Shown here: piece after piece, positions 9,805 to 46,428 of the stretch
Position numbering within the stretch: position 1 is the stretch's first letter
How the letters are laid out: every line of letters starts with the position of its first letter
Source of the DNA: Vibrio aphrogenes
Lineage (GTDB): Bacteria > Pseudomonadota > Gammaproteobacteria > Enterobacterales > Vibrionaceae
Direction: 5' to 3'
Assembly: GCF_002157735.2 (NCBI RefSeq)
Contig: NZ_AP018689.1
Coordinates: forward strand, 1,583,619 to 1,647,618
Length of the DNA: 64,000 nucleotides
The notes under the pieces: model-generated
The model's database searches: none
What the model saw: the letters and a program-made list of their open reading frames with translations, nothing else
What the model was told of the DNA's origin: nothing
Position numbers and translations under genes: made by a program

Positions 9805-9833
9805 TTGACGACATTTATAATGATGATTTACAT
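9805..9833 (+). promoter_or_regulatory. Probable tRNA-Pro promoter region
   Basis: TATAAT at 9816-9821 and TTGACG at 9805-9810 lie just before the tRNA. They are too close to be one -35/-10 pair, so the exact promoter is uncertain: either TATAAT with a weak -35, or TTGACG with a weak TTACAT -10 after 17 bases. Confidence 0.4.
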
Positions 9834-9842
9834 TAGCGAAAT

Positions 9843-9919
9843 CGGTATGTAGCGCAGCTTGGTAGCGCACTGTCATGGGGTGTCAGGGGTCGGAGGTTCA
9901 AATCCTCTCATACCGACCA
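9843..9919 (+). tRNA. proL: tRNA-Pro (anticodon GGG)
   Basis: A 77-nt cloverleaf ending in genomic CCA. The acceptor stem pairs CGGTATG with CATACCG. The anticodon loop ATGGGGT gives anticodon GGG, which reads CCC/CCT. It is very close to E. coli proL and sits at the same place after yejM. Its 3' half starts the 141-bp tandem array described separately. Confidence 0.97.
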
Positions 9920-9928
9920 TTTATTTAA

Positions 9929-9963
9929 AGGCGTTGTGAGTTCACAGCGCCTTTTTGCTTTTT
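9929..9963 (+). terminator. Terminator after tRNA-Pro
   Basis: A 10-bp stem (AGGCGTTGTG paired with CACAGCGCCT, loop AGTT), then T5-GC-T5. An exact copy lies 141 bp downstream. Confidence 0.9.
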
Positions 9964-9976
9964 AGGCTCGCTGAAA

Positions 9977-10060
9977 TTATTGTAAGCGCAGCTTGGTAGC
10001 ATCGTCACCCACTGCGCATGAGGTGCCAATATCGAGGTTCAAATCCTCTCATACCGACCA
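9977..10060 (+). pseudogene. Decayed tRNA-Pro copy 1
   Basis: It keeps the D-arm GCGCAGCTTGGTAGC, the complete T arm and the 3' end CATACCGACCA. The 5' acceptor strand (CGGTATG) is lost, and the anticodon arm is lengthened by 7 nt and rewritten (CATGAGG where the tRNA has CATGGGG). It cannot form a normal acceptor stem, so it is not expected to be charged. It may still be transcribed and processed. Confidence 0.85.
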
Positions 10061-10069
10061 TTTATTTAA

Positions 10070-10104
10070 AGGCGTTGTGAGTTCACAGCGCCTTTTTGCT
10101 TTTT
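10070..10104 (+). terminator. Duplicated terminator in the tRNA-Pro array
   Basis: An exact copy of the hairpin at 9929-9963, offset by 141 bp. Confidence 0.85.
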
Positions 10105-10117
10105 AGGCTCGCTGAAA

Positions 10118-10190
10118 TTATCGTGAGCGCAGCTTGGTAGCGTCGTCACCCACCGCGTATGAGGTGCCAACATCGAGGTTCAAATCCTCT
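10118..10190 (+). pseudogene. Decayed tRNA-Pro copy 2
   Basis: Like copy 1, with the D-arm and T-arm sequences retained and the anticodon region enlarged. The match ends at AATCCTCT, so the 3' acceptor strand and CCA are missing too. Confidence 0.8.
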
Positions 10191-10257
10191 TTTGGGTAAA
10201 AAGACGACTTTTATGGTTCAACCGCTTAAAATTCATTCAAACTATTGAAATTAAGGG

Positions 10258-10286
10258 TTTACAAATTTTTTAGCTCTATATATTAT
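10258..10286 (+). promoter_or_regulatory. Promoter of tRNA-Ser
   Basis: -35 TTTACA (10258-10263), 17-bp spacer, -10 TATTAT (10281-10286), then a GC-rich discriminator ACCGCGTC, typical of stringently controlled stable-RNA promoters. The tRNA begins 12 bases after the -10. Confidence 0.7.
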
Positions 10287-10297
10287 TTACCGCGTCT

Positions 10298-10388
10298 GGA
10301 GGGATGGCTGAGTGGTCGAAAGCACCGGTCTTGAAAACCGGCAGTCGTTAATAGCGGCTCTAGGGTTCAAATCCCTATCCCTCCACCA
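10298..10388 (+). tRNA. serT: tRNA-Ser (anticodon UGA)
   Basis: A 91-nt class II tRNA with a long variable arm. The acceptor stem pairs GGAGGGA with TCCCTCC, and CCA is encoded. The anticodon stem-loop CCGGTCTTGAAAACCGG gives TGA, which reads TCA/TCG. Confidence 0.97.
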
Positions 10389-44445: not shown

Positions 44446-46428
44446 TCACGACAATAACCCTAATAGCTTTTTCGCTTCCTGTTTGAGTGATTGGTCGCCT
44501 TTGGCTAATACTGTTTTGAGTAATTTTTCAGCGGTACGCTTGTCATCCATTTCCATAAAGACGCGAGCAAGATCTAAATGACTGTTCATTTCAGCGTTAA
44601 TATCCACATCGAAAGGTTTGACATCCCCTAACACATCAGGGAACTCATCCAGCCCGACTTCTAAATCTGGTTCATCAGAAGCGTCGACTGTTTCAAATGA
44701 TTGAGCTATTTTAGTTGGTTGATCTATTTCAGGTGGTTGAGCTATTCCAGTTGGTTGAGCTTCGGCTTTTGCTTGCGTTAACTCGTTATGCGCTTTCGTG
44801 GCAACTTCGGCCTGCGATTGCTCGAGGGACTGCTGTTGCGAAACAGACGCCTGTAACTGTGTATTATCGTCAAGTGTTGGAGATACTAGCGCCACCGCTT
44901 GTTCAGATTGAACAGGAGGCTGAGTAATTAAACGTTCATCAAACTCATGTTGCGGAGCTGGCTCGTCTGCTTGTGCTTCTGGAACCTCTTGCATTGACAC
45001 ATCAAATTCGACCGGTTTCATTTCTGCATCAAGGCGCGCTTCATCTTCGCTATAAACCATCGATGCCATGTCATCAAAGCTGATTTCTGTTTCTGTTTCT
45101 GTTTCTGTTTCTGTTTCTGTTTCTGTTTCTGTTTCTGTTTCTGTTTCTGTTTCTGTTTCTTGATAATGGTTATCGACAGCAGAGACATCTGCAAGCAAAA
45201 TTTCCGGATTAACACTCACCTCTTTAGGCTCAACTTTCTGAGTCATTGCCAAGGTTTCTAGCGGTTGATTTGTTTTCGGTTGACGCACAAAAAGCAGTCG
45301 CACAATTAATAAAATCAAGACTAACGGTAATAAGATGATCACCCACAACCAAGGATGTTGATTAGCAATACGTACAAAAGCTTGAGGAGAGTCGATTGAT
45401 GTAGAAGGCGCTTCATCAACCTGCATAGCATTGGCTCGATTGTGATCGCCTATGGCCAAACTGTTTTTCAATTCATTTAACTGCTGCTGAATTTTTGTCA
45501 GTTCATCGGTTAAGCGAGAATTCATTTCCTCAACTTTTTCCATCTCGATGGTTTCAGTGGTTAAATCCGATACTATCGATTGTTGCTCCTCATCCATCAC
45601 CTCATGAGCAGGAGCTTGTGTTGCGATGACCCCATTCACCGGAGCATCAGCTTCTTCGTTTTGTTGCAAGCTAGCCTTTGATACTGAGCTATCCTCTGGC
45701 GACACAGCGTAAACTTGAGAGGTCGCAGCTTGAGAAACGGTGGTTTGAGAAACTGTAGATTGAGAATCCGTTGTTAGTGACGCACTTGCGCTCTGTGAAA
45801 CTGATGCAAGCTCTTGTGGGGATTGAGACGCCGGTTCTGCAACTACAGGTTCTGTAGCCGCTGTTTCGCTAACAACAGCTTCTGTAATAGTAGGTTTTGC
45901 GTCGCCTTCTCGCTCCTCAACGGGCACAGCTAGGCTGGTATAATCTTCTAGTTTGGCTGGCGGGGGGGGAGTAAGGCTTGAATCAACTTGTGAAGGCACC
46001 GGGCGTTGTTTATCGCGCTGAATAACCTCAACGGCTTGTTCTGTAGTGACCTTTTGAATCGCGTCTAATGTGGGTAAGCGCAACATACTGCCGGGAATTA
46101 AACCGTGAATATTATGATCTTCAAACGCCTTAGCATTGAGTTGGTAGGTCGCTAATACCGTTTGAGCCACAGAGACCGACTTCGCAGGACGATAATCTTT
46201 TGCTATCGACCACAACGTTTCCTCTTCTTGCGTTGGCCCATAAGTTGAGGCTATATCATCGTCAGAATACGAGACCGTTGGCAAAGACAGAGATTCCGAT
46301 GTTTGTTGGCTAGACACCTGGCTTATTGGTTCTTCTGCTGTTCTTACCTCATCTGCACAAGCAGCCGGCATTTGCGTTGCAAACAATAAAACAACAGGAG
46401 TGATAAAGTGCTTAAATGTATAGCGCAT
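44446..46428 (-). CDS. hubP: HubP/FimV polar landmark protein
   Basis: A 660-aa protein: signal peptide (to about 25, ATQMPAACA), a periplasmic LysM-like domain (TLWSIAKDYRP...GSMLRLPTLDAI, about 70-122), a coiled segment near 300-330, one membrane span (WLWVIILLPLVLILLIVRLLF, about 358-379), a very acidic cytosolic region, and the FimV C-terminal domain (HLDLARVFMEMDDKRTAEKLL, about 614-660). In Vibrio, HubP recruits ParA-type ATPases for chromosome, flagellum and chemotaxis placement. It is far shorter than V. cholerae HubP. A (Glu-Thr)n tract at about residues 425-449 comes from a hexanucleotide repeat. Confidence 0.9.
   Translation of the reverse strand: MRYTFKHFITPVVLLFATQMPAACADEVRTAEEPISQVSSQQTSESLSLPTVSYSDDDIASTYGPTQEEETLWSIAKDYRPAKSVSVAQTVLATYQLNAKAFEDHNIHGLIPGSMLRLPTLDAIQKVTTEQAVEVIQRDKQRPVPSQVDSSLTPPPPAKLEDYTSLAVPVEEREGDAKPTITEAVVSETAATEPVVAEPASQSPQELASVSQSASASLTTDSQSTVSQTTVSQAATSQVYAVSPEDSSVSKASLQQNEEADAPVNGVIATQAPAHEVMDEEQQSIVSDLTTETIEMEKVEEMNSRLTDELTKIQQQLNELKNSLAIGDHNRANAMQVDEAPSTSIDSPQAFVRIANQHPWLWVIILLPLVLILLIVRLLFVRQPKTNQPLETLAMTQKVEPKEVSVNPEILLADVSAVDNHYQETETETETETETETETETETETETEISFDDMASMVYSEDEARLDAEMKPVEFDVSMQEVPEAQADEPAPQHEFDERLITQPPVQSEQAVALVSPTLDDNTQLQASVSQQQSLEQSQAEVATKAHNELTQAKAEAQPTGIAQPPEIDQPTKIAQSFETVDASDEPDLEVGLDEFPDVLGDVKPFDVDINAEMNSHLDLARVFMEMDDKRTAEKLLKTVLAKGDQSLKQEAKKLLGLLS
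45084..45155. repeat. Hexanucleotide microsatellite (TTTCTG)12 in hubP
   Basis: Twelve perfect TTTCTG units (plus partial ends) encode alternating Glu-Thr on the minus strand. A six-base unit keeps the frame, so slippage alters length only. Confidence 0.97.

Follow-up and report, generated by a model that had tools for sequence, protein, structure and literature searches.

The tandem array that follows tRNA-Pro(GGG) in the analyzed stretch of Vibrio aphrogenes DNA (64,000 nucleotides, hereafter the window) is best explained, with a probability of about 0.55, as an array of pseudo-tRNA units of the E. coli rtT type, which would have been amplified by unequal crossing-over and homogenized by gene conversion and would be mostly silent. 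The array fits a plan that recurs at other tRNA genes of Vibrionaceae, in which a tRNA 3' part with CCA, a terminator and a partial tRNA with an enlarged loop are repeated in tandem at a tRNA.

The functional tRNA-Pro(GGG), with its CCA encoded, occupies positions 9843-9919 (ARAGORN; 55.5 bits with Rfam RF00005) of the forward strand, on which the array, the promoter-like sites and tRNA-Ser also lie. A consensus scan places a promoter-like site, TTGACG - 18 - TACATT (9805-9834, 9 of 12 matches), so that it ends 9 nt 5' of the tRNA, and a similar TTACATT or TTAGATT precedes the tRNA in other loci. The array proper spans 9893-10190, with a period of 141 bp, 2.1 copies, 96% matches and 0% indels according to TRF, and repeat search placed GAGGTTCAAATCCTCT at exactly 9893, 10034 and 10175, the three positions that the first-pass annotation had given for GAGGTTC. 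In each unit the T arm, 3' acceptor strand and CCA are followed by a terminator with a 12-bp stem, a spacer of about 20 nt and a degenerate piece consisting of a D arm and an anticodon arm. The first such block, 9893-9919, belongs to the real tRNA itself (TRF, repeat search). It is followed by intrinsic terminator 1 with its U-rich tail (9927-9964, stem 9927-9954; folding energy -18.4 kcal/mol, z -5.75), by spacer 1 (9965-9984) and by pseudo-tRNA-Pro 1 (9985-10060), composed of a D arm (9985-10000), an enlarged anticodon-arm part (10001-10033) and a T arm with the 3' acceptor strand and CCA (10034-10060). Intrinsic terminator 2 (10068-10105, stem 10068-10095), recovered by repeat search and scan, is identical to terminator 1; after it come spacer 2 (10106-10125) and pseudo-tRNA-Pro 2 (10126-10190), which includes the D arm, the enlarged anticodon-arm part and the T arm up to CCTCT and has neither acceptor strand nor CCA, so that the last unit ends before CCA. 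Further downstream, a promoter-like site, TTTACA - 17 - TATTAT (10258-10286, 10 of 12 matches), precedes the neighboring tRNA-Ser(TGA) (10298-10388; ARAGORN, Rfam). The flanking genes are yejM on one side and an isochorismatase-family gene on the other. TRF also detected, at 45084-45160 of the window, the 6-bp motif TTTCTG repeated perfectly in tandem (12.8 copies), a possible phase-variable site.

Copy 1 was correctly described by the first-pass annotation as retaining the T arm and CCA, lacking the 5' acceptor strand and having an enlarged anticodon-arm region: GGTAGC and the T stem are 33 nt apart in the window pseudo copies vs 26 nt in the real tRNA, that is, 7 nt more, the excess being about 9 nt in the sister species that bears the same array (G058; the genome of the window is G000). 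The 5' acceptor strand of the pseudo-tRNA is absent in both these species. The recurring "5' half" of tRNA-Pro mentioned in the same annotation is in fact reduced to the D arm, whose string AGCGCAGCTTGGTAGC is present in every unit, with one D-stem pair disrupted in copy 1. Two matches to the pseudo-tRNA signature occur in the window, with 0 expected from shuffled sequences.

Comparison of the locus across relatives, which the first-pass annotation had named as a check, recovered the same array in one of them and a trace in another, the rest having the single-copy layout. The tandem pattern behind tRNA-Pro(GGG) was found in 3 of 228 genomes of the genus, namely G000, G058 and, as a trace (GCATAGCTTGGTAGTTGATTTACC), G027, and a run of the tandem-layout pattern over 330 Vibrionaceae genomes yielded matches behind tRNA-Pro(GGG) in the same three only. 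The G058 array lies at the same locus, comprises two full units and a partial third, and also has a period of exactly 141 bp. The remaining genomes carry tRNA-Pro, one terminator and, in many of them, tRNA-Ser some 170-190 nt further on; in a set of 41 loci, BLAST revealed no extra tRNA-Pro pieces at any other. One genome (G135) could not be scored for the array, its assembly being broken inside tRNA-Pro at a contig end. In the same genome, a second copy of the first 24 nt of tRNA-Ser stands ahead of the gene itself, beside a run of N (L145, 85-240), so the interval is repetitive there too.

The two units of the window differ at six sites, all of them transitions and all inside the 53-nt pseudo-tRNA part, and there are no differences in the 88 nt formed by the 3' part, the terminator and the start of the spacer (P=0.0023). 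The G058 units behave likewise, with 0/60 differences in the block of the 3' part and terminator vs 8/81 elsewhere (P=0.010). Such confinement of the differences to the pseudo part fits either repeated homogenization of what the unit has in common with the real tRNA or selection acting on that sequence. As to the divergence between G000 and G058, their YejM proteins are 84% identical in the compared part, and 96 of the 133 four-fold sites of yejM differ, which is close to saturation. In the pseudo-only part 23-24 of about 37 sites are identical (61-65%, P 0.001-0.002), and the terminator shows 78% identity; the spacer, with 48%, is no closer to its counterpart than shuffled sequence (P=0.416 for spacer 1). 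Since the pseudo-only part is common to the two species and absent from the real tRNA, the unit was inherited and not remade, and the array is therefore old. At the same time, nearby intergenic DNA is 69-74% identical between these genomes (74% in the 100 nt 5' of tRNA-Ser), that is, about equally conserved, which argues that the constraint on the window array is weak.

The tRNA-like decoys or small RNAs that the first-pass annotation expected from this array found no support in our analysis. The covariance-model check of the copies, in which RF00005 was applied to 9925-10260, gave no match at E 10, and ARAGORN made calls on the array copies at relaxed thresholds only, these calls being mutually inconsistent. 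The acceptor stem needed by RNase P, the CCA enzyme and the synthetase is missing from the pseudo-tRNA-Pro copies, and together with the absent tRNA score this rules against a decoy tRNA. The window units fold no better than shuffled sequence (z -0.3 and -0.7), and the minimum-energy folds predicted for the pseudo units differ between G000 and G058. Units of the other arrays described below have folding z values mostly near 0, the lowest being -2.0; the consensus fold of Pro(UGG) reaches only about -0.4 kcal/mol, and the Gly inserts (n=77), hairpin-like to the eye, show no covariation and no pairing above shuffles. Conserved RNA structure was rejected because neither folding energies nor covariation support it. 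A consensus scan found no forward-strand promoter between terminator 1 and the tRNA-Ser promoter, and any transcript from tRNA-Pro would meet the strong terminator first. A repeat-encoded peptide appears unlikely as well, the ORFs of the array being trivial (20-37 aa, mechanical predictions).

The analogy with E. coli tyrT/rtT, also drawn in the first-pass annotation, holds for the layout only. Subjected to the same analysis as the window, the tyrT/tyrV units measure 178 bp and are present in 3.1 copies behind the tRNA; in both systems, the units that follow the tRNA in tandem include its 3' end and CCA (the last window unit excepted). The rtT units carry tRNA nt 67-85, i.e., the last 19 nt, have no D arm detectable by BLAST and no terminator per unit, in contrast to the window with one in each, and are annotated with the rttR RNA and the Tpr peptide. 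Membership of the Rfam RtT family (RF00391) was rejected, as a search of the complete genome of the window at E 10 returned no hit to the model, the E. coli control being positive. Ahead of the insert, the rtT units contain a piece, AAGGTTCG, that resembles a T arm, although this is no more than a lead (P 0.02-0.10); rtT itself might be, judging by this resemblance, a tRNA-Tyr whose T loop is interrupted. Another comparable system is the tRNA-Pro/tRNA-His repeat cluster of Photobacterium phosphoreum, reportedly described by Giroux, Beaudet and Cedergren in 1988. It is said to contain repetitive tRNA-Pro and comes from the same family as the host of the window, but reportedly is a Pro/His operon and not tRNA-Pro(GGG).

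A tRNA survey of the same genome (32 loci, 90 tRNAs) revealed extra tRNA pieces at 5 of the 32 loci: Pro(GGG), Pro(UGG), Trp, Gly of a Cys-Gly-Leu-Gly unit and Gly of a Gly/Met unit. The Trp array has a period of 114 bp and 5.2 copies, and the Gly array of the Cys-Gly-Leu-Gly unit, 143 bp and 3.4 copies; at Pro(UGG), 5'-half units (99 bp) are located upstream and units of the 3' part and terminator (98 bp, 5.5 copies) downstream. In the Arg-His-Pro-His-Pro unit (G000:C1:141,100-142,600; L155/L004) the real tRNA-Pro(UGG) is flanked by both arrays. Terminators are visible in the Trp, Gly and Pro(UGG) array sequences, and in the partial tRNAs either the anticodon loop (Trp, Pro) or the T loop (Gly, Pro) is enlarged by an insert of about 19-20 nt. 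The window array differs from these by its shorter insert (7-9 nt vs 17-21 nt), while they concern other isoacceptors and are more widely distributed and better conserved. No Rfam family covers the Trp, Gly and Pro(UGG) arrays, and a literature search on such arrays yielded nothing on point.

Counted with exact or near-exact patterns, and hence as lower bounds, pseudo-Trp units occur in at least 78 of 326 Vibrionaceae genomes (three genera), pseudo-Gly units in at least 107 of 326 (five genera) and pseudo-Pro(UGG) units in at least 44 of 330; the backwards-read pattern had no matches in the genomes listed. The anticodon-loop insert of Trp is about 19 nt long with a consensus of about CCCTAATACCAAAACAG (L158 855-1432, L215; L180-L209), and the T-loop insert of Gly measures 17-21 nt (L161 1117-1604, L175, L217), one version of it, CCTAAGCCTTGAAGATCGG, being letter-for-letter the same in several genera. 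Pseudo-tRNA-Pro(UGG) units whose anticodon loop is replaced by AATAGCGGACCAGAGGG number up to 9 in a genome and belong mainly to one other genus (L095-L144), and some pseudo-tRNA-Pro(UGG) carry hairpin-like T-loop inserts (CTGG-AGCG-CCAG), found in pseudo-Trp too. A common origin of the inserts across tRNA types was considered and rejected: forward similarity exceeds shuffles with z of 4-9, but that of the reverse complement is about equal, which indicates that the inserts have a pyrimidine-then-purine pattern in common and are not clearly homologous.

The matching loci of G058 (Trp, Gly and Pro(UGG)) also bear arrays, in different copy numbers. Between G000 and G058 the inserts are identical at 16/19 (Trp), 17/19 (Gly) and 20/20 (Pro(UGG)) positions, that is, 84-100%, vs spacers at or near chance level for Gly and Trp, a difference that points to selection somewhere in the class. 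As the real gene has no inserts, conversion with it cannot maintain them, and purifying selection is the simplest reading.

We suppose that the history of the window array could be as follows. In an ancestor, tRNA-Pro(GGG) would have been duplicated in tandem together with its terminator; the duplicate would then have lost the 5' acceptor strand and gained some 7-9 nt in the anticodon arm, becoming a pseudo-tRNA. The resulting unit of tRNA 3' part, terminator, spacer and pseudo-tRNA 5' part may have been multiplied through unequal crossing-over, and either gene conversion or selection on the terminator may have maintained the identity of the blocks in common with the real tRNA, i.e., the 3' part and the terminator. 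The array would act mainly as DNA, a recombination substrate with drifting copy number, and at the RNA level would give rise to rare read-through transcripts, each ending at the next terminator, and probably to no stable tRNA-like product. It is part of a wider Vibrionaceae class, the loop insert of which is constrained at other tRNA loci. Two facts count against this explanation. A purely neutral array would be expected to decay, and G000 and G058, near saturation at the four-fold sites of yejM, have both retained it; besides, the class-wide constraint is left unexplained by a mostly silent recombination substrate.

It is the conserved inserts that speak for a functional RNA, according to which read-through transcripts would be processed to tRNA-like or small RNAs serving as decoys, sponges or regulators, with the loop insert as the working part. 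In E. coli, leuZ has a 3' external spacer that acts as a sponge, and the inserts at Gly, Trp and Pro(UGG), absent from real tRNAs, are conserved between species when the spacers are not. We nevertheless consider this unlikely for the window, where the copies have lost the acceptor stem, the tRNA score and any significant fold, where a strong terminator stands 5' of every copy with no promoter inside the array, and where the pseudo part is not conserved above nearby intergenic DNA; the 77 Gly inserts without covariation argue in the same direction. Quite unlikely, too, is retention of the array as a reserve of terminators protecting the tRNA-Ser gene and promoter against tRNA-Pro read-through. 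The presence of a terminator in each window unit and in the Trp, Gly and Pro(UGG) arrays, its identity within the array and its higher between-species identity than that of the spacer all agree with such a role; yet a single terminator between the two tRNAs suffices in many Vibrio genomes, identical terminators are obtainable by conversion alone, and insulation explains neither the pseudo-tRNA part nor the conserved loop inserts elsewhere.

Very improbable, finally, is an origin of the array as a scar left by integrative elements, with tRNA-Pro(GGG) as their attachment site and with displaced 3' ends remaining. The gene does appear to serve such elements in other genomes (G149, G202, G118, G224, G073; L042-L046), where a further 3' piece of the tRNA is located some 40-48 kb away, with a phage-type integrase (PF00589) directly behind tRNA-Pro(GGG) in the two loci checked (L044, L046). 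There, the identity of the displaced ends begins at tRNA nt 21-30, within the D or anticodon arm; here it starts in the T stem (nt 51). A D arm in every unit, unlike att duplications of the tRNA 3' part, and flanking genes other than an integrase led us to reject an att scar, and a mobile-element origin was rejected since the plasmids, phages and viral contigs searched contained no match.

The preferred reading of the window array as an rtT-type pseudo-tRNA array can be placed in a broader frame, which we propose tentatively and at less than even odds: Vibrionaceae may possess uncatalogued, selectively maintained tRNA-derived tandem elements behind several tRNA genes, namely pseudo-tRNAs that each have a terminator of their own and a conserved anticodon-loop or T-loop insert. 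The inserts would be functional as RNA or as a DNA site; rtT would be distantly related to these elements by its layout, and the window array would be one of their weakly constrained members. To our knowledge, E. coli rtT has so far been an isolated oddity; now that similarly organized arrays are seen at several tRNA types in one family, it becomes a comparative problem. The data suggest a recurrent, partly conserved kind of element that has not been catalogued. In genome annotation they call for caution, as tRNA-like copies behind tRNA genes are not necessarily decoding tRNAs. The inserts evolve far slower than their own spacers, which poses the question of what constrains them, and along with it the questions of whether tRNA 3' ends are general seeds of tandem arrays and whether such arrays may affect tRNA supply or termination.
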